From: Marinitoga litoralis | GTDB taxonomy: Bacteria > Thermotogota > Thermotogae > Petrotogales > Petrotogaceae | DNA: 64,000 bases | Assembly (NCBI RefSeq): GCF_016908145.1 | Contig: NZ_JAFBDI010000004.1 | Coordinates: 1-64,000, forward strand | Direction: 5' to 3' | Shown: piece after piece, positions 30,137-41,263 of the stretch | Numbering within the stretch: the stretch's first letter is position 1 | Layout of the letters: each line of letters opens with the position of its first letter | Program-made: the position numbers and the translations under genes | Notes under the pieces: model-generated | The model's input: the letters and a program-made list of their open reading frames with translations, nothing else | Told to the model about the DNA's origin: nothing | Database searches by the model: none

Positions 30137-31183
30137 ATGGATATTAATGAAATGTTATTTTCATCAGATATAAAAGATAAATTAAAAGCTATAGAGTATA
30201 TAGCGGAAAATAAATTAAATGAATATGCAAAAGACTTATTTAAAATGCTTAAATATGAGAATGATACTATAATACAGGAAGCAATTATAAGCACTTTAAA
30301 ACAATTGGATTTAGAAAAAGTGCCTAATGAAGTGTTTTTAGAGCTACTGCAAAGCGAAAAATTATTATTAAAAGAATTTGCACTTTCTCTTTTAAGTATT
30401 TCTAAGAAATTAGATGTATTAGGAAATTTAATTAATAGTGAAGATAAAGATGTTAGAAAGTATGCATTAGATGCATTATATAGAACAAAAGATAAAGAAG
30501 CTATTAAATATATAGCTAAATGTTTGGATGATAAAGATATAAATAATAAAATAGCAGCTATAGAATATTTAGGATTAATGGGTGCAAATGAATATGCAGA
30601 AAAAATCGCTCAAATTTTAAAAAACACAAATAATCCATTTTTAATAACAACTATATTAGAATCTTTAAGCATAATAGGTGATGAAAAGTCAGACACTATA
30701 ATTAAAGAAAAATTTAAAGAAATAAAAAGTCCTCATTTTATTATACCGTATGCAAAATATATTTTTAATAAAAAGGACGTTTTTAGAAGTGTTGAGTTTT
30801 TTGAAAAATGTGAATATAAACATTTGGTAATAAAAGAATTTTTGGATTATTTACATAAAAATAATAAAAAGATAAAGTTATATGCTAAATTAAAAAAACG
30901 AGTAATATCTATTTTAAAAGACTTATTAAAAAACAAATTATATCATATGTATACAAATGATATTTTAATTCTTATAAATCTTTTTACTGAAGACGGTATA
31001 GAAGAATTATTAAAAGAACATATTGAAATTTTAAATGAAGAAGGAATAATGGCTGCAGTTGAAATAATCAATGAAAGAAAATTAAAATCATTTAAAGATA
31101 TTCTCCAAAAAATTAAAGATAATTATTCAGAAGAAACAAGGATGATTATTGAAGAAACATTAATGGAGATGGAAAGATGGTAG
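30137..31183 (+). CDS. HEAT-repeat scaffold protein
   Basis: 348 aa, entirely helical, with recurring repeats of about 30 residues (for example DKDVRKYALDALYRTKDKEA and DKDINNKIAAIEYLG). These are HEAT/PBS-lyase-type repeats, used as protein-binding solenoids. No enzyme motif. It is first in the chemosensory operon, and its last codons overlap cheR by 7 nt. HEAT proteins occur beside some chemosensory clusters, but its partner here is unknown. Confidence 0.82.
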   Translation: MDINEMLFSSDIKDKLKAIEYIAENKLNEYAKDLFKMLKYENDTIIQEAIISTLKQLDLEKVPNEVFLELLQSEKLLLKEFALSLLSISKKLDVLGNLINSEDKDVRKYALDALYRTKDKEAIKYIAKCLDDKDINNKIAAIEYLGLMGANEYAEKIAQILKNTNNPFLITTILESLSIIGDEKSDTIIKEKFKEIKSPHFIIPYAKYIFNKKDVFRSVEFFEKCEYKHLVIKEFLDYLHKNNKKIKLYAKLKKRVISILKDLLKNKLYHMYTNDILILINLFTEDGIEELLKEHIEILNEEGIMAAVEIINERKLKSFKDILQKIKDNYSEETRMIIEETLMEMERW

Positions 31184-31995
31184 AAGATTATAAAAAAATA
31201 AGAGATTATATATATGAAAAAACAGGTATATATGTTGAAGAAAAAAGATTATATTTTTTTAAAAATCGAGTATTTAAAAGAATGAAAAATATTGGTATAG
31301 AAGATCCTAATATATATTATAACTTTTTAGTTAATGGCGAATATTCAAAAATGGAATTAAATAAATTGATTAGTGAAATTACAGTTAATGAAACATATTT
31401 TTTTAGAGAATTTCCTCAATTAAAGGTTTTTGCAGAATATGCATTAAAAGATGTAATTAATAGGAAAAACAATAAAACAATAAAGGTATTATCTGCAGGA
31501 TGTGCTTCTGGAGAGGAGCCATATACATTATCAATAATTCTGAAAGAGATGTTAGATAGTGATTTTGATTATATAATTGATGCATTTGATATTGATCCTA
31601 TAATGATTTTAAAAGCTAAAGCGGGAATATATAATGATTATGCAGTTAGAGATGTTCCAAAAGAATATTTAAAAAAATATTTTGAAGAAGATAAAGGAAA
31701 TTATAAAGTAAAGGATATTATAAAAAATAAAGTAAATATATATAATTTAAATTTAGTTGAAGATGAAACATATGAAAAATTAGATGATGACTATGATTTT
31801 ATTTTTTGTAGAAATGTATTTATATATTTTTCAGATGAAATAAGAAAAAATATAATAATGAAGTTTTATGCAATATTAAATGAAGGTGGATATATATTCT
31901 TGGGTCATTCTGAGTCAATAAATAGAATAACGAATGCTTTTAGAGTTATTAAAGCAAATGATTTTATATTATACCAAAAGCCTTATGCGCAATAG
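31177..31995 (+). CDS. cheR: Chemoreceptor methyltransferase CheR
   Basis: 272 aa. It methylates receptor glutamates using S-adenosylmethionine. The N-terminal helical domain (ITVNETYFFREFPQL) is followed by the SAM-binding domain: SAGCASGEEPYTL, ATDI-like AFDIDPIMILKAKAG and DFIFCRNVFIYFS. No C-terminal TPR or receptor-tethering feature. It overlaps the HEAT gene and is 12 nt from cheY. Confidence 0.95.
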   Translation: MVEDYKKIRDYIYEKTGIYVEEKRLYFFKNRVFKRMKNIGIEDPNIYYNFLVNGEYSKMELNKLISEITVNETYFFREFPQLKVFAEYALKDVINRKNNKTIKVLSAGCASGEEPYTLSIILKEMLDSDFDYIIDAFDIDPIMILKAKAGIYNDYAVRDVPKEYLKKYFEEDKGNYKVKDIIKNKVNIYNLNLVEDETYEKLDDDYDFIFCRNVFIYFSDEIRKNIIMKFYAILNEGGYIFLGHSESINRITNAFRVIKANDFILYQKPYAQ

Positions 31996-32007: not shown

Positions 32008-32382
32008 ATGAATAAAAAGATATTAGTTATAGATGATTCAAAAATGACAAGAAGTTATCATGCAAGTATATTAAAATCTGCAGGGTATGAAGTACTTGAA
32101 GCAGAAGACGGAGCAAAAGCATTAGATGTACTATATAGAGAAGGCAATATAGATCTTATATTAACAGATTTAAATATGCCTAACTTAGATGGTTATACAA
32201 TGATAAAAAAGATTAGAGAAGATGAAAATTATAAGGATTTACCAATAATTATAGTAACTACATTAGACAAATCTACAAATAAAATGAAAGGATTTGAAGT
32301 AGGAGCCAATTTTTATATAGTAAAACCATCAGATCCTGAATCATTAATAGAGAGTGTAAAAATTGCCCTTGGAGAGGATTAA
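32008..32382 (+). CDS. cheY: Response regulator CheY
   Basis: 124 aa single receiver. Asp9-Asp10, phosphoacceptor Asp54 (ILTDLNMP), Thr84 and Lys106 (VKPSD) are in place. It is encoded between CheR and CheA. The stop is one nt before the CheA ATG, with the CheA ribosome site inside its last codons. It may act on a flagellar motor or on the other proteins of this cluster; the sequence does not decide. Confidence 0.93.
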   Translation: MNKKILVIDDSKMTRSYHASILKSAGYEVLEAEDGAKALDVLYREGNIDLILTDLNMPNLDGYTMIKKIREDENYKDLPIIIVTTLDKSTNKMKGFEVGANFYIVKPSDPESLIESVKIALGED

Positions 32383-32383
32383 A

Positions 32384-34261
32384 ATGAAAATGCATTTCGA
32401 TGATAAATTTATTAATGACATGCTAAAAGAGTTTTCTTCTGAAGCCCAAGAAAATATAAATTTAATTGAAGTTAATTTAGTAAATTTAGAAGAAAGTGGA
32501 AATATGAATTTAATAAACACAATAATGAGAGGATTCCATACTCTTAAGGGGTCGTCTAGATTGTTGTTATCTATGGATATTCCAGAAAAATATACAAAAA
32601 AGATAAAAAAAATTGAGGAAATTTCACATAAATTAGAAGATTTATCCTTAACAATTTCAAGTAAAGATGACAAAAACATAGATTTATTATATGACGGATT
32701 AGACTTGATAAAAAAGATTACTAATTCGTTCATTGATGAAAATGTTGATATAGATATATCTAATTATATGATAAATTTCAAAAATATTGATGTGAGAACA
32801 GAAAAAAAACCAAAATTAAATGAAGTTACGAAAAAAATGTTAATTGATTTAAAAGAACAATTTTTTGAGTATTTATTAAATGCAGAAAATTATAATATGT
32901 CTCAAATAAATAGAATGAAAAAACCATTAGAAAACACGTTGAAAAGATTTGGAAATGATAAATTAACCAACAAATTCCAAGAAATCATAAAATGTGTTGA
33001 GAGTAATGATAAAAATAGTATAAGAAATGCAATAACAGAATTTGATAATATATTATTTAATAAACAATCTAAGGAATTTAAAATTGAATTTTCTGATACT
33101 GTTAGGGTAGATGTAAAAAAAATAAATACAATAATGAATTTAGTAAGTGAATTAGTAACTATAAAAAATACATCTTCTTATTTGTTAAAAGAATTATATA
33201 AAGTATCGCCAAAACTACATAAAGAATATACTCAAGTTTTTGCTAATTTAGATAAAATAACAATTAACATTCAAGATCAAATATTGAGTTTAAAAATGAC
33301 TCCAATAAAAGAATTGTTATTTAGATATAAACGATTAATAAGAGAGTTATCTAAAGAAAAAAACAAGGAAATCTCATATGAGTTTTCAGGTGAAAATATA
33401 GAAATAGATAGAATACTATTAGAAAATTTATCCGATCCATTAACTCATATAATTAGAAATGCTATTGATCATGGTATTGAAACTCCACAAGAAAGAAAAA
33501 GCTTGGGTAAAAATGAAGAAGGATTAATAAAAATAAATGTATTTTATGAAAGTGGATATGTTTTTATTGAAATCATTGACGATGGAAAAGGTATAGATAT
33601 AGATAAAATAAAAGAAAGAGCAAAAGAATTAGGATATGATATTAATATTCCAGATGAAGAGATTATAAATTATATATTTGAACCTGGATTTAGTACTGCG
33701 AAAGAAGTTACTGAAATTTCTGGTCGTGGAGTGGGAATGGATATTGTAAAAAATAATATAGAAAAATTAAATGGAAAAGTATACATTGAAACCAAAAAAA
33801 ATCAAGGAACAAAAATAACATTAAAAATCCCAAATTCAATAATAAACATTGATGGGGTTATGGTTTTAATTGATAATGAAAAATATATTTTTCCATTTGA
33901 AGAAATAGATAAGATAATAAAAGTAAACAAAGAAAAAATACATAATTATTCTAATCAAATATTTGTAGAGTATAATGAAGAAATTATTCCTGTTTTTTCA
34001 GGAATTATAGAAAATAAAAAATATACCTTTGAAGAAATTATTAACAAGGAATATAAAAATGATTTAATACCTATTATATTAATTGATAATGGTAATGCCG
34101 GATTATTAGTAGACGAAATTATAGAAGAAAATGAGTTTTTAGTAAAACCCTTGCCAGAATTTTTAAAATATGATTTCATATATGGTTCCACTATATTAGG
34201 AAATGGAGATATAGTATTAATCTTAAAACCATCTGAAATGGTGATACAATGGCAAAAGTAA
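32384..34261 (+). CDS. cheA: Chemotaxis histidine kinase CheA
   Basis: 625 aa. HPt domain with phosphorylated His52 (GFHTLKGSSRL). A second helical stretch near 140-230 takes the place of the usual P2 domain. Then dimerisation (VDVKKINTIMNLVSELVTIKN), ATPase (LSDPLTHIIRNAIDHGIE, DDGKGID, GRGVGMDIVK) and a C-terminal CheW-like coupling domain. GGAG in the end of cheY directs the ATG at 32384; the frame is open to 32363. The ParA-type gene overlaps its 3' end by 13 nt, showing tight coupling. Confidence 0.95.
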   Translation: MKMHFDDKFINDMLKEFSSEAQENINLIEVNLVNLEESGNMNLINTIMRGFHTLKGSSRLLLSMDIPEKYTKKIKKIEEISHKLEDLSLTISSKDDKNIDLLYDGLDLIKKITNSFIDENVDIDISNYMINFKNIDVRTEKKPKLNEVTKKMLIDLKEQFFEYLLNAENYNMSQINRMKKPLENTLKRFGNDKLTNKFQEIIKCVESNDKNSIRNAITEFDNILFNKQSKEFKIEFSDTVRVDVKKINTIMNLVSELVTIKNTSSYLLKELYKVSPKLHKEYTQVFANLDKITINIQDQILSLKMTPIKELLFRYKRLIRELSKEKNKEISYEFSGENIEIDRILLENLSDPLTHIIRNAIDHGIETPQERKSLGKNEEGLIKINVFYESGYVFIEIIDDGKGIDIDKIKERAKELGYDINIPDEEIINYIFEPGFSTAKEVTEISGRGVGMDIVKNNIEKLNGKVYIETKKNQGTKITLKIPNSIINIDGVMVLIDNEKYIFPFEEIDKIIKVNKEKIHNYSNQIFVEYNEEIIPVFSGIIENKKYTFEEIINKEYKNDLIPIILIDNGNAGLLVDEIIEENEFLVKPLPEFLKYDFIYGSTILGNGDIVLILKPSEMVIQWQK

Positions 34262-35022
34262 TAGTTCTTGCTAATAGAAAAGGGGGAAGTGGGAAAACCA
34301 CTCTTGCCTTTAATTTATCCCACGCATTTAAATCAAAAAAAACATTTTCAGAAAAAATATTATTAATAGATTTTGATTCACAAGCACATTCTACAGTTTA
34401 TGCTGGAATTAATCCATTTGATGTGAAGTATGGAATATATGAGATGATTGTAGATTATATTAATACAGGAAAATATAAAGATGGAAAAATTAGTATGCAT
34501 AATATTGATATTATTCCATCAAATCAAAATTTAGCTGCTTTAGAAATAGAATTGGCTCATCATGAGGAAAGAAATTTTGTTTTAAAAGATTTAATAATAG
34601 ATTTTCATAATGAATATGATTATATTTTTATCGATACCCCACCAAGTTTAGGGCTATTAACTATAAATGCTTTAAATGCATCAGATTATTTATTAATCCC
34701 AGTAAAAAGTGATTTCTTATCATTAGTAGGATTATCTCAAATGATGGAAATATATTATAAGGTAAATGTTGAAAATCCTAATTTGAAAATTTTAGGCGTA
34801 ATACCAACAATGGTTGATAAAAGAACAAAAATTTCAAAGGAAATAATAGGTGAGTTAAAGAAAATATTTGGAGATAAAAAAGTATTCACTCCACTTAGAA
34901 ATGATGTAAAACTCATAGAATCATCTAGTCACGGAATACCTATAATTAAATATGCACCAAAATCAAGAGCATCAAGTGATATAAAGAAAATAGCAAAAGA
35001 AATTCAGGAGTTGATTAAATGA
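34249..35022 (+). CDS. ParA/MinD-type ATPase (chemosensory array positioning)
   Basis: 257 aa. The deviant Walker A KGGSGKTT (11-18) with signature Lys11, the switch DFDSQAHST and the Walker B FIDTPPSLG are intact. It lies inside a che operon, overlapping cheA by 13 nt, like ParC of Vibrio and PpfA of Rhodobacter sphaeroides, which distribute chemosensory arrays. No parB or parS-like element is adjacent. The next gene has a ParB-like N-terminal peptide and overlaps by 4 nt. Chromosome segregation is the alternative; context argues against it. Confidence 0.9.
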   Translation: MAKVIVLANRKGGSGKTTLAFNLSHAFKSKKTFSEKILLIDFDSQAHSTVYAGINPFDVKYGIYEMIVDYINTGKYKDGKISMHNIDIIPSNQNLAALEIELAHHEERNFVLKDLIIDFHNEYDYIFIDTPPSLGLLTINALNASDYLLIPVKSDFLSLVGLSQMMEIYYKVNVENPNLKILGVIPTMVDKRTKISKEIIGELKKIFGDKKVFTPLRNDVKLIESSSHGIPIIKYAPKSRASSDIKKIAKEIQELIK

Positions 35023-35309
35023 AAATTTTAGGCCGTGGTTTAGATACTTTTTTTAATTCCGATAATTTATTTAAAAAAGCATTAGAATATGATGATAATG
35101 GAAATATATTTTTTGCATTTCATTATTATATGAAAGCAGCAGAAACAAATGAAGAAATAAAGTCAAAAGCATTAAATAATGCAGCTGTTATTTTAGCTGA
35201 AAATGGATATGAAAAAGAAGCTATTGAATTGTTAAAAAAATCATTAGAAGCTAATCCGGATAACAAAGAAGCAAAAGAAAACCTCGAATATTTGGAGGGA
35301 CTGATTTGA
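35019..35309 (+). CDS. Small TPR protein with ParB-like N-terminal peptide
   Basis: 96 aa. Residues 1-12 read MKILGRGLDTFF, closely resembling the LGRGLxALF peptide with which ParB proteins contact ParA and stimulate its ATPase. Residues 20-90 form about two TPR units (KALNNAAVILAENGYEKEAIELLKKS is canonical); there is no DNA-binding domain. It overlaps the ParA-type gene upstream by 4 nt and the Hsp70-like gene downstream by 4 nt. I infer an adaptor that activates the ATPase and binds array or chaperone through its TPR. Confidence 0.85.
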   Translation: MKILGRGLDTFFNSDNLFKKALEYDDNGNIFFAFHYYMKAAETNEEIKSKALNNAAVILAENGYEKEAIELLKKSLEANPDNKEAKENLEYLEGLI

Positions 35310-36724
35310 TAGTAGGTATAGATTTTGGGACAACGAATTCTTTAATAGCAAATTCAGAAATATTTATTAATGAGAGAGGTAGTAGAATTACACCTTCTAT
35401 AGTTTTTTTTAGAAAAGAAAATGAAATATTAGTAGGTGATTTAGCAAAATCACAAATGTATATAAGACCAGATAGAGTAGTATTAAATGTAAAAAGGGAT
35501 CTTGGAAAAGGAAAAGAATATGTTATATATAATAAGAAATTTAAAGCAGAAGAAATCGCAAGTTTTATTTTTAGAAAATTAAAAAATATAGTAAATGAAG
35601 AAATAACAGATGCAGTAGTTACCGTTCCAGCGTATTTTGATGATAATCAAAGAAATGGAGTATTAGAAGCAGCGTCTTTAGCTGGATTAAATGTAGTAAA
35701 ATTATTAAATGAGCCTGTGGCAGCAGCTATTGCATATGGAATAAATGAAAGAGATAAGAAGGTGTTAGTGCTTGATTTTGGTGGAGGAACTTTTGATATA
35801 ACATTAATGGAAATAAAAGACGATGTTTTTAATGTTATAAAAACTGGAGGAAGTTCAGAACTAGGTGGAATAGATTTTGATAAGGTAATTGTTGATTGGA
35901 TAGTTAATACAATATATGAAAGAGATGGAATAAACTTAGGTGATGATCCTGTTGCATTACAACAAATATATAACCATGTAGAAAGCGCAAAAATAGACTT
36001 ATCTGTTGTAGATAATACTGATATTGTAATTCCATATATTTCAACCTTAAATAATAGACCATATCATTTGAATATAAACATAACTAGAGATATGTTTTTA
36101 AATATATCAAATAACTTAATAAAAAAAATAGAGGATTTAATAAAAGAAAGTGCAAATGATGATATAGATGAAATAATATTTGTAGGTGGATCTTCTAGAT
36201 TATTCTTCTTTAAAGATTTGGTGCAACAAATATTTCCAGATAAAAAGATAATTGCAGATTTAAATCCTGAAGAATTAGTTGTTAAAGGAGCAGGTATATA
36301 CTCTCAGGTTATAGAAGGAAAAAATAATATTATATTAAAGGATATATTGCCGCATTCTCTTGGGGTTTTAGATGATGAAGGAAATTTTATTGAAATATTA
36401 AAAAAAGGCATGCATTATCCTACATCAGAAACAGAAATTTTTACAAATACACAAGATAATCAAGATACAATAATAATTAAGGTTTTACAGAAGAAAAATA
36501 ATGAAATGATTAATCTTGGGAATTTTGAGTTTAAATTTTCTAATAAATGGAAAAAAAACGAAGCTAGAATTGCAGTTAATTTTTCACTTAACATAAATGG
36601 GGTATTAGAAGTAAGTGCAGAAGATATTTATACTGGACAAAGTTTAAATGGGAAAATAACTAATGCCATGGTAAATAGCAGAAAATTAGATACAGTTTTA
36701 ATGAAAAAATATAAGATAATTTAA
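35306..36724 (+). CDS. Lid-less DnaK/Hsp70 paralogue
   Basis: 472 aa. The ATPase domain is complete: GIDFGTTNS, phosphate loop VLDFGGGTFDITL, EPVAAAIAYG, FVGGSSR. A substrate-binding beta domain of about 115 residues follows, but the protein ends where DnaK would start its alpha-helical lid, about 130-150 residues short. It starts at TTG after GGAGGGACTGAT, overlapping the TPR gene. Placement in a chemosensory operon suggests a specialised partner of the TPR protein or receptor, not the housekeeping chaperone. Confidence 0.9.
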   Translation: MIVGIDFGTTNSLIANSEIFINERGSRITPSIVFFRKENEILVGDLAKSQMYIRPDRVVLNVKRDLGKGKEYVIYNKKFKAEEIASFIFRKLKNIVNEEITDAVVTVPAYFDDNQRNGVLEAASLAGLNVVKLLNEPVAAAIAYGINERDKKVLVLDFGGGTFDITLMEIKDDVFNVIKTGGSSELGGIDFDKVIVDWIVNTIYERDGINLGDDPVALQQIYNHVESAKIDLSVVDNTDIVIPYISTLNNRPYHLNINITRDMFLNISNNLIKKIEDLIKESANDDIDEIIFVGGSSRLFFFKDLVQQIFPDKKIIADLNPEELVVKGAGIYSQVIEGKNNIILKDILPHSLGVLDDEGNFIEILKKGMHYPTSETEIFTNTQDNQDTIIIKVLQKKNNEMINLGNFEFKFSNKWKKNEARIAVNFSLNINGVLEVSAEDIYTGQSLNGKITNAMVNSRKLDTVLMKKYKII

Positions 36725-36758: not shown

Positions 36759-38693
36759 ATGGAAGAAAAAAAATTGCTTTCTCCAGAATCGCAAAAAACT
36801 CCTGGAATAATGAAAGTAAAGGATGAAGAGTTAAAACGAAAAAGAGAAGAAGCAAGGCAAAAAGCGCTTGAAAGAGCAAAAAAACAAACAGTTTTAAAAA
36901 GACAAGCAATGGCTGAAGAGTTAACATCATCAGCTGAAGAATTATTAGCTGCTGTGGAACAAATTTCCTCAAGCGTTGAAGAATTATCAAAATCTATGAT
37001 GCAAATAAGTTCAGGTACTGAACAAATTTCAAATTCAATACATGAAATAAGAGCAGCGATTTATCAAATAAATAAAAATTCTGATGGAATAAAAAAAGAA
37101 GCAAATGATATATTATACGAAACCGATAAGTCACAGATTCAAGTTTTACAATCAATTAATGGCGTAGATTTATTAATTAATTCTGTAAATAAAACTATAG
37201 AATATAACAAGTATACAAATGAAAATATTACAATGTTAAAGGAAAAATCTCAAAAAATATCCGAAATTATTAATTCAGTAGTATTAATTGCAGATCAAAC
37301 AAACTTATTATCCTTAAATGCAGCAATTGAAGCTGCTAGAGCTGAAGAATATGGAGTTGGATTTGCAGTAGTAGCAGATGAAATAAGGAACCTTGCTGAA
37401 GTATCTGAGATAAATGCAAAAAATATAGAAGATAATATAAATAATTTAAAAAATAGTATGGACTATATAATCACAGATGTTGAAAAGTTAAATGCATTTT
37501 TTGAAGAACAGGGCAATTTAGGTAATGAAATTAATAGCATATTTATTGATTTAAGAGAAAAATTTGAAAATATAAAAGGTAATGTGAATAAAGAATTAAA
37601 AATTATCGATGAATTTTCTGAAATGTCAGAAAAATATTTAGCTTCAGCTGAGAATGTAGTGGCTTATTCAGAACAAGTAGCCAAAGAATCAGAAGAAATA
37701 TCAAAGTCATTGCAAGAAGAGGAAGAAGCCTTTAACCAAATTACTGTGGCATCTCAAAACCTAGTTGATATATCAGAGCAAATATTAAATTCTACTGAAG
37801 ATAAAGATTCTTTGTTATTATTATCTTCCTCAATTGATGAACTATTTAGCATAATAGAAGAAGCGTATCATGGTTCTGAAAATATTAAACATCATTTAGA
37901 ACAATTGGAAAAAATTTCTTCAGTTTTTGCAGAAGAAATGGATAATATGAATAATTTAGTTTTTAAATTCCATGAATTATCACATGAATTATTAGAAATA
38001 AATAATAAGGATAAAGACACAGTTGAAGTAGTTTTAAAAAATATAAAAGAAAGTAAAGTAAAAGTAGGTGATTTAGTAGATAGCATTGATAAAACGAATA
38101 AAGGATTTTCTGATATTTACTTAAACATAAAAAAATTAGCTACTAATTTTAAATTAGTAAATAATAGTATTTCAAAAATGGAAAAAATGTCTATACAAGT
38201 TAATATGCTTGCTGTAAATGGATTTATTGAAGCTGCGAGAGCAGGTGAATATGGTAATGGTTTTTATGTAGTATCAAATGATATAAGAGAACTTTCAAAA
38301 ACTTCGGAGGAAAATTTAGAGTCAATAAAAAATGTAATAGAAGAAATTGATGAAAATATTAAAATATCAGAAGAAAATGTATATGAAAATCAAAAGAGAA
38401 CATATTCTGAAATAATAGAAGCTAATTCAGCATTATATTCAATTAAAGAAATAGAAAAAACTATTGAAAACTTATTGGGTAAATATCAAGTAATATCACA
38501 TTCTATCTCGGAAATCGTTATTGCAATTGAGCAATCTAAAAAAGCAGTTGAACAATCTCAAAGTGCTGTAGAAGAATCATTTGCATCTATCGAAGAAGCT
38601 TCAAAAGCCTCATTAGAACATGAAAGAGGAATAAGTGAAATGCTTAAAGTAACAAAGGAAATTATGAATCAATCAAGTAATTTACAGCTGTAA
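36759..38693 (+). CDS. Cytoplasmic receptor-like protein with two MCP signalling tips
   Basis: 644 aa, no membrane helix and no recognisable ligand domain. The first 50 residues are highly charged helix. Two receptor hairpin tips occur, at about 180-215 ([19 protein letters not shown]) and 480-515 ([19 protein letters not shown]), exactly 300 residues apart, so the coiled coil seems internally duplicated. The first tip is closer to consensus. It should bind CheA/CheW in the cytosol, like TlpT or FrzCD. GGAGGAA precedes the ATG. Confidence 0.9.
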
Positions 38694-38720: not shown

Positions 38721-40199
38721 ATGAATTATGTTATATTTTCTCTTAATAAGCAAGAGTATTGTATATCAATGAAAGATATATCAGAAATAATAGGGTTAAA
38801 AAAGATAACTAAAATACCATTATCTCCTAAATACGTTGAAGGATTAATAAATTTAAGAGGAGAAATTATTCCTATTATTAATCTAAAAACAAAATTTGGA
38901 TTGAAGAATAATGATGTGTTTTCAAAAATTATTATTATAAATGGTCACAGGAAAATTGGAATATTAGTAGATTCAATTAATGGGATTTTAAATAAATACG
39001 ATGAAGAAATTGAATCAAAAACTAAGTATATAAATTCTATTATTAAAAGTAAAGACAAAGAATATTTTATTTTAGATATTAATAAGATTGTTGATATAAA
39101 AAACATAAAATCCTTAAGTATAAATAGGAGACAAAAATCTAAAAAACATATAAAAAAGTCTTCGTTAAATAAAGTGATAACAGTTAAGATAAATAATGAG
39201 ATATATGGATTTGAATTGAATAAAATTTTTGAAATAATCAATTATATTGAGCCAAGTAAAGTGCCAAATGTTCAAGGATATGTAAAAGGTATTATATCTG
39301 AAAGAGGAGAAATTATTCCTGTAATTGATTTGAGAGAAATTCTATATAATACAGATTCTAATATTACAGAAAAAACAAAAATAGTAATAATAAATATTGA
39401 TGATTATAAACTCGGAGTAATTGTAGAAAATATTCATAGGCTTGTTGAAGTCGAAAAAATAAAAAAACTATCTAGTATAGAAAATAGTATTTTAAGCGGT
39501 TATATTAAGACAGATGATTATTCAGCAGTTGTATTGAATTTAAATGGATTATTAACAGATGAGATTAAAAATTTAAATAAAAAAAGTGAAACTATTGAAA
39601 AAATTGAGAAGAAGAAAGATAAATATATATTATTTAATGTCAATAATGATAAATATGCAATTGAATTGAATTTAGTCAAAGAGATTAATAGAATAAATAA
39701 AATGACCAAAATTCCAAAATCTTCAAAGTATATTAGAGGTATTATTAATTTAAGAGGAGATACAGTTCCTATAATTGATTTGAAAAAGAGATTCAATTCA
39801 GAAGAAATTGAAATAACTGAAGTATCTAGAATTTTAGTTGTAAATATAGAAAATCAATTAATAGGATTATTAGTTGACTCAGTGAATAAATTAATTGCTA
39901 TGGATTATATTAAATTAGGATCTAATAGTAAGTTTATTAAAGGTTTAGGAGAATATAATAATGAATCAATTTTGCTTTTAGATTTAAATAATTTATTGGA
40001 TAAAAATGAATTGAAATCTTTGAATATTTCAAAAAGTTCAGAAAATATAAAAGATATAAAATCGATTGAAGAAAATAAAAAGAACGATGAAATAAAAATA
40101 GAAGATTCAAAAAAAATTAATAACGAAAATAAAGTTATTGAAAAAACTATTGATAAAAAAACTCAAAAGAAAAATATTAAATTAAAGAGATCGAGGTGA
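38721..40199 (+). CDS. Triple CheW-domain coupling protein
   Basis: 492 aa. Three CheW domains in tandem start near 1, 152 and 295; each has the domain's signature strand pair (for example YVEGLINLRGEIIPIINL, YVKGIISERGEIIPVIDL, YIRGIINLRGDTVPIIDL). A Lys/Glu/Asn-rich unstructured tail covers 440-492. A single CheW is about 150 aa. It links receptors to CheA; three copies could cross-link an array or serve the double-tipped receptor. CheB follows immediately. Confidence 0.92.
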   Translation: MNYVIFSLNKQEYCISMKDISEIIGLKKITKIPLSPKYVEGLINLRGEIIPIINLKTKFGLKNNDVFSKIIIINGHRKIGILVDSINGILNKYDEEIESKTKYINSIIKSKDKEYFILDINKIVDIKNIKSLSINRRQKSKKHIKKSSLNKVITVKINNEIYGFELNKIFEIINYIEPSKVPNVQGYVKGIISERGEIIPVIDLREILYNTDSNITEKTKIVIINIDDYKLGVIVENIHRLVEVEKIKKLSSIENSILSGYIKTDDYSAVVLNLNGLLTDEIKNLNKKSETIEKIEKKKDKYILFNVNNDKYAIELNLVKEINRINKMTKIPKSSKYIRGIINLRGDTVPIIDLKKRFNSEEIEITEVSRILVVNIENQLIGLLVDSVNKLIAMDYIKLGSNSKFIKGLGEYNNESILLLDLNNLLDKNELKSLNISKSSENIKDIKSIEENKKNDEIKIEDSKKINNENKVIEKTIDKKTQKKNIKLKRSR

Positions 40200-40204
40200 T
40201 CAAC

Positions 40205-41263
40205 ATTCCACAAATAAATGTTTTAGTTGTAGATGATTCGCCATTAACTAGAAAAGTATTAAAAATGTTAATAGAATCAGATGAATCTTTAAATGTCATA
40301 GGTGTAGCTAGAGATGGTATAGAAGCAATAGAAAAGGCAAATGCTTTAAACCCAGATGTTATAACAATGGATATAAAAATGCCAAATATGGATGGGTTAA
40401 CATCATTACAGTATATTTTTGAAGAAAAGAATATACCTGTAATAATTGTTTCTTCTTTAGGTGAAAGAGGTTCATTAATTGCATATGAAGCTCTTGAATT
40501 AGGAGCATTTGATTATATTGAAAAACCCGATGACTTATATTATTTAAAAGATGAATTGATTAAAAAGATTCATGCAGCATACATATTCTCCCAATCTGAA
40601 AAAGCAAAAAAAGAATTTTTCTCAGAGAAAGAAATTTCATATGAAACAAAAGAGAAAAAGGTAATAGAAACTCCATCTAGTATGGATTTTTATGGTGTTG
40701 CTATTGGAATTTCTACGGGTGGACCAAGAACAATATATGACGTTTTACCTAAATTACCAGCTAATTTAAACGCTGCTGTATTTATAGTACAACATATACC
40801 AGAGAAATTTACTAGAACATACGCAGAAAGATTAAATAATAGCTGTGAATTAAATGTTGTTGAAGTAGAAAATGATATGGAAGTTAAACCTGGATATGTA
40901 TATGTAGGTAAAGGTGGATATCATTTAAAACTAAGAAAAGGTTTAAATGGGTTACGTATAATGTTATCTAAAACACCTAAACACATTTTTATGCCATCAG
41001 TAGATGTCATGATGGAATCAGTTTTAGAACATTTTGATAATAAAACTGTTGGGGTATTAATGACTGGTATGGGAAATGATGGAGCTAATGCTATGGTTAA
41101 AATTAAAGAAAGAAATGGATATACTATAGCGGAATCTGAAGAAACTGCAGTGGTTTTTGGAATGCCAGCTGAAGCTATTAGATTAGGAGGAGTAAATATA
41201 GTTTTACCTTCGTATAATATAGCAGATGAGATAATTAAAAAGGTAGGATTGAGAAATGGATAA
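40205..41263 (+). CDS. cheB: Chemoreceptor methylesterase CheB, predicted ATT start
   Basis: About 352 aa. A receiver domain (Asp9/Asp10 region, phosphoacceptor Asp56 in TMDIKMPN) is joined to a methylesterase/deamidase domain with GISTGGPR (Ser), VQHIPEKFT (His) and TGMGNDGA (Asp). It removes receptor methyl groups. The frame has GTG at 40196, but that codon is part of the GAGGTGATC ribosome site itself; the ATT at 40205 lies five nt after it and gives I(M)-P-Q-I-N-V-L-V-V-D-D. The 3' end overlaps the next gene by 8 nt. Confidence 0.93.
   Translation: MPQINVLVVDDSPLTRKVLKMLIESDESLNVIGVARDGIEAIEKANALNPDVITMDIKMPNMDGLTSLQYIFEEKNIPVIIVSSLGERGSLIAYEALELGAFDYIEKPDDLYYLKDELIKKIHAAYIFSQSEKAKKEFFSEKEISYETKEKKVIETPSSMDFYGVAIGISTGGPRTIYDVLPKLPANLNAAVFIVQHIPEKFTRTYAERLNNSCELNVVEVENDMEVKPGYVYVGKGGYHLKLRKGLNGLRIMLSKTPKHIFMPSVDVMMESVLEHFDNKTVGVLMTGMGNDGANAMVKIKERNGYTIAESEETAVVFGMPAEAIRLGGVNIVLPSYNIADEIIKKVGLRNG

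Follow-up and report, generated by a model that had tools for sequence, protein, structure and literature searches.

The 96-amino acid (aa) protein encoded at positions 35019-35309 (+ strand) of the window, i.e. the whole 64,000-nucleotide stretch of Marinitoga litoralis DNA analyzed here, carries a ParB-type ParA-binding peptide at the N-terminus of a TPR domain, and this pairing of ParB peptide and TPR is, as judged from sequence, conserved over three bacterial phyla. The peptide, its conservation and the linkage between the ParA and TPR genes are established directly, the target site on ParA appears largely conserved, and the TPR fold is predicted. We consider it likely that this protein is a dedicated partner of the ParA-type ATPase encoded next to it, with the peptide entering the ParA-ATP dimer, the TPR domain holding a component of a chemosensory array, and ParA placing or segregating that array. 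The TPR-ParA pairing would then probably serve to position the sensory array on the chromosome.

Gene and predicted fold of the TPR protein

The open reading frame comprises exactly 96 codons, and the protein starts with MKILGRGLDTFFNSDNLFKKAL. Because the stop codon of the ParA gene ends at 35022 and the Hsp70 gene starts with a TTG at 35306, the TPR gene overlaps each of its neighbors by 4 nt, sharing ATGA with the ParA-gene stop and TTGA with the Hsp70 TTG start. A preliminary description had placed a 96-aa TPR reading frame between these two genes with 4-nt overlaps, and both coordinates and translation agree with it.

Pfam TPR_2 (PF07719) matched residues 50-82 above the cut-off, and the same model matched 15 of 16 TPR orthologues. 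In an AlphaFold2 model built with the 16 orthologues, helical hairpins at residues 14-26/30-43 and 45-61/65-78 and a cap helix at residues 83-92 were predicted with high confidence, and residues 1-10 had a mean pLDDT of 51; therefore, the protein is predicted to consist of two TPR units, followed by the cap helix, with a flexible N-terminus. The closest PDB matches of the model were designed and natural TPRs. The protein is not a ParB: ParB models matched none of the 16 orthologues, only TPR and weak TPR-like models were returned by the profile search, and neither a ParB-CTPase fold nor an HTH was found. Pfam profiles gave no CheW match in it, nor was an AIF domain of the ParP type detected. 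The ParB profile, Pfam and AlphaFold2 thus agree with the earlier statement that an LGRGLxALF-type N-terminus is here joined to a TPR and not to a DNA-binding domain.

The ParB-type peptide and its conservation

The peptide, MKILGRGLDTFF (35019-35054, + strand), contains LGRGL at residues 4-8 of the protein, which fits the published consensus for ParA binding, (L|F|I)G[KR]G(L|F|I), i.e. LG-R/K-GL (PMC12704722). ParB N-termini from a comparison set of about 20 genomes, in some of which the TPR gene is present too, read LG[KR]GLxAL[IL]. When a 9-mer profile was made from 21 ParB N-termini, LGRGLDTFF was outscored by just 2 of 66,342 background 9-mers. A scan for LGxGLxx[hydrophobic] within the first 40 aa of the 895 ORFs of at least 90 aa from the loci compared gave 37 matches, every one (37/37) a ParB or a TPR-protein orthologue. 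By these sequence comparisons, the ParB-like motif in the TPR protein is not a chance occurrence.

Genome-level searches, together with a single scan of 85,000 genomes, revealed 26 orthologues, nine in Thermotogota, three in the phylum to which an Atribacterota MAG belongs (a placement made via a Caldatribacterium MAG) and 14 in one Firmicutes class (that including HGW-Firmicutes-15); outside the genus, identity to the window protein was mostly 35-57%. Neither the Hsp70 nor the TPR alignment found relatives among viral contigs. LGxGL fits all 26 orthologues, the linker between it and the TPR varying from about 3 to 45 aa, whereas the published pattern fits only 12 of them. Position 6 is R in nine, K in three, M in eight, I in three, T in two and L in one; among the Thermotogota members a single one lacks the basic residue, and all three members of the Atribacterota phylum have it. 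Conservation of the motif among orthologues was therefore upheld for L, G, G and L (26/26) but not for Arg6, which is R or K in 12/26. With K2 and R6, a low pLDDT and a cognate ParA gene adjoining, the N-terminus of the window protein has the sequence traits of a ParA/MinD activator, although a non-basic position 6 in 14/26 orthologues goes against the basic-peptide trait of such activators.

The neighboring ParA and its ParB-binding site

The ParA-type ATPase (34249-35022, + strand; Pfam AAA_31) has the 8ray ParA as its top PDB match, and the chemosensory ParAs form a single clade separate from Soj (tree support 100/100). In Myxococcus xanthus, a ParA pocket made of V116, L150, L152, L155, L187 and L192 takes the hydrophobic residues of ParB, the central ParB arginine meets ParA Y81, E82, D110 and E117, and a ParB R13A mutant keeps ParA binding with stimulation almost lost (PMC12462528). 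Mapping of this site onto 16 chemosensory ParAs through the PDB 8ray sequence revealed Y81 in 14 and F in the other two, E82 and E117 each kept in 14/16, L150 kept in 16/16, and I, L or V at the L155 position in 16/16. The D110 position is often N, L192 is lost in the window's genus, the L187 position is K or R in 16/16 (20 of the 21 Soj proteins have a non-basic residue there), and the Motif-2 catalytic Asn (M. xanthus N64) is H or Q in all 16. By this mapping, the chemosensory ParAs appear to retain most of the ParB-binding site known from M. xanthus; however, the binding mode cannot equal that of ParB, because of the changes of L187 to K/R and N64 to H/Q and the missing L192 in the genus. 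The K/R at the L187 position would suit a partner that has to avoid cross-talk with ParB in ParB-bearing genomes.

A TIGR00180 ParB was found in none of 41 close relatives, as compared with 8 of 14 control genomes, which suggests that canonical ParB-based chromosome segregation is lacking in this group. Since, in addition, the window ParA is the sole strong ParA match in its genome, no chromosomal ParB appears to compete for it. An apparent covariation between peptide position 6 and ParA Motif-2 (H pairing with R/K and Q with a non-basic residue; 24/26, the exceptions being G489 and G499) was set aside as mostly clade-driven.

The variation at position 6 bears on what the peptide does once bound. 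The 14 orthologues with M, I, T or L at this position, taken with the R13A precedent (PMC12462528), do not allow the Arg6-dependent "activating" role proposed earlier to be extended to the family as a whole. The same 14 lack the basic residue on which ParA stimulation by ParB, though not ParA binding, depends (PMC12462528), and the Motif-2 catalytic residue is altered in all 16 ParAs compared; both points would fit a peptide that binds ParA without stimulating hydrolysis, the arrays being simply held on the nucleoid (cf. PpfA/TlpT; PMC10924463). We regard such purely passive tethering as rather unlikely, given the R/K of the window protein, of the Thermotogota members with a single exception and of the three Atribacterota-phylum members; moreover, in the Firmicutes forms the central basic residue could be replaced by lysines that immediately precede LG. 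A second Lys matters in Bacillus subtilis Spo0J (PMC11229316). With the TPR protein as an active ParA partner, stimulation of the ParA ATPase would be expected of the R/K members, including the window protein with its Arg6, while in the M/I/T/L clades ParA would be bound and stimulated weakly or by way of another residue. Because R/K versus M/I/T/L varies naturally, the family provides a test of the claim that the central residue drives hydrolysis, not binding.

Chemosensory operon and linkage of the ParA, TPR and Hsp70 genes

The operon, all on the + strand, is arranged in the order: a HEAT-repeat protein (30137-31183; Pfam HEAT_2, with its position as the first gene conserved in relatives), a CheR-type methyltransferase (31177-31995), a CheY-type response regulator (32008-32382), a CheA histidine kinase (32363-34261; Pfam Hpt, H-kinase_dim, HATPase_c and CheW), ParA, the TPR protein, a lidless Hsp70 with a TTG start (35306-36724), a DosM-like chemoreceptor with two signaling domains (36759-38693; two MCPsignal stretches by Pfam), a coupling protein with three CheW domains (38721-40199; three CheW stretches by Pfam) and a CheB-type methylesterase (40196-41263). 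CheR, CheY and CheB were assigned by sequence and conserved gene order, and the receptor is called soluble from the lack of transmembrane segments as judged by eye.

The ParA gene is immediately upstream of the TPR gene in 26/26 loci, and among strong matches neither ParA nor TPR occurred without the other; the one further ParA match in the phylum (G050) is plasmid-like and outside any chemosensory operon. Six genomes carry the same receptor but have no ParA, TPR or Hsp70 (one of them, G035, being judged on the basis of genome-wide searches and a receptor locus of short length). In one reordered operon (G059, L052), the ParA-TPR-Hsp70 block is intact and shifted to the operon front. It was also noticed that in the cassette-less operon of G002 (L117) the HEAT, CheR, CheA, CheB and HD-GYP genes are all broken by frameshifts or stops, which may reflect either decay or assembly error.

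The Hsp70 gene is present in 25/26 loci and absent from G003 (L035), whose operon keeps ParA and a TPR protein 89% identical to that of the window, in an otherwise unchanged order with TPR and receptor genes about 50 nt apart; a genome-wide Hsp70 search of G003 returned a DnaK match only. An adaptor role between ParA and Hsp70 is not supported in view of this operon. Since operons without ParA also have no TPR gene, and G003 has ParA and TPR without Hsp70, we conclude that the primary partner of the TPR protein is most likely ParA.

The Hsp70 consists of an NBD and a beta substrate-binding domain, and its ATP motifs are intact. Its C-terminus reads [LIYV]x[VI][LIF]-COOH in 14/14 loci and then in 9/9 new ones (window, L036, L047, L049-L052, L055, L060, L068, L070-L072 and L134-L142), the tail being otherwise variable. 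This common ending, the overlap of the TPR and Hsp70 genes and their adjacency in 25/26 loci could be taken to mean that the TPR protein mainly serves the Hsp70, as eukaryotic TPR co-chaperones do, with ParA as a client or bystander. We find this improbable: the TPR protein persists in G003 with no operon Hsp70, the Hsp70 tails do not end in EEVD, the ending looked for in a co-chaperone pairing, and the ParB peptide would be left unexplained. AlphaFold2 predicted the tail, past a disordered linker and with a bridge, to be ordered on the Hsp70 itself, which also counts against co-chaperone action and suggests an intramolecular role for the modeled tail; the tail was demoted as a candidate TPR ligand for this reason.

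Within the receptor N-terminal tail, a Pro-Gly-Ile (36801-36809, + strand) corresponds to a [TP]G[IL] pattern that tracks the ParA-TPR cassette, being found in 14/14 loci with the cassette, then in 8/9 new loci, and in 0/6 without it. This pattern was seen post hoc and is clade-dependent (G035 has SGI); it was rejected as evidence and is retained as a weak lead only. No simple two-residue pattern in the receptor tail separates the cassette from the cassette-less groups, and alignment columns separating operons with and without the cassette were absent from HEAT, CheR, CheY, CheA, CheW and CheB, two weak ones being found in the receptor. The receptor gene is broken in two loci, by an early frameshift in G239 (L069, at about 11642) and an internal TAA in G102 (L049). 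That the receptor acts as the partner of ParA, as TlpT is thought to do, with a different role for the TPR protein and an incidental LGRGL likeness, is very improbable in spite of its Lys/Arg-rich N-tail, since LGxGL is present in the TPR protein in 26/26 and absent from the receptor, and since the receptor with its basic tail is also found in operons without ParA.

Proposed role of the TPR protein

In the reading that we prefer, with the TPR protein as dedicated ParA partner, the flexible LGRGLDTFF peptide would enter the ParA-ATP dimer as the ParB peptide does, the TPR domain would hold a component of the operon's cytoplasmic double-headed chemoreceptor array, and nucleoid-bound ParA would thereby place or segregate the array. 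ParA partners are regarded as modular, and a true ParB consensus on a 96-aa TPR would represent a minimal ParA partner. It also points to ParA-dependent positioning of cytoplasmic arrays in lineages for which the literature found describes none. Literature searches found no description of the ParA-TPR-Hsp70 cassette, nor a report of one with a DosM-like receptor. Tentatively, and with appreciable doubt, we propose that the genes between cheA and the receptor gene form a novel ParA-adaptor-Hsp70 cassette that positions double-headed cytoplasmic arrays in three phyla, in which R/K versus M/I/T/L at position 6 splits stimulating from tethering partners.

Comparison with known systems

The TPR protein resembles ParB/Spo0J in having an L-G-x-G-L core followed by a hydrophobic pair in a flexible region near the N-terminus (PMC12704722, PMC12462528), in the adjacency of its gene to parA and in a ParA target site that appears largely conserved. 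It differs from ParB in lacking the ParB-CTPase fold, the HTH and any ParB match; in addition, the family is usually without the Ala before the hydrophobic pair, which is F/F or L/L (L/I in ParB), and the central basic residue is missing in many members. Like PadC and KorB, it carries a ParA-binding motif outside the canonical chromosomal parAB loci, but those proteins have the ParB-CTPase fold (PMC12704722), as do all the motif carriers named in the literature searched, e.g. PadC and KorB (PMC12704722). With PomX, McdB and ParG it shares the arrangement of a short N-terminal peptide on unrelated cargo-binding domains, although the N-termini of these three are described as positively charged, whereas the TPR protein uses the actual ParB consensus (PMC7993993). 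The soluble receptor with two signaling domains is similar to that of the DosM/F9 arrays of Vibrio cholerae (PMC7534058).

ParA homologues, namely PpfA and ParC, are known to position chemosensory clusters (PMC3964821, PMC5706961, PMC10241942), and the simplest reading, by analogy, is that the TPR protein works functionally like ParP/ParC and TlpT/PpfA. In Rhodobacter sphaeroides, PpfA positions the cytoplasmic chemoreceptor cluster (PMC3964821, PMC10924463), TlpT being only "thought to" stimulate it (PMC3964821); there the receptor itself contacts PpfA, whereas here the peptide is borne by the 96-aa TPR protein (PMC3964821, PMC10924463). In the preliminary description the role seemed to have "moved" from TlpT to a separate adaptor, a view that we do not find supported, as neither homology nor a direction of change was established between the two and a separate adaptor, ParP, was already known (PMC5706961). 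In Vibrio, the N-terminal domain of ParP binds the ParA homologue ParC and its CheW-like AIF domain enters the array (PMC5706961). ParP is likewise encoded by a separate adaptor gene beside a ParA homologue in a chemotaxis operon (PMC5706961), and although the body of the TPR protein is a two-repeat TPR with no AIF domain, ParP is a closer analogue of it than TlpT.
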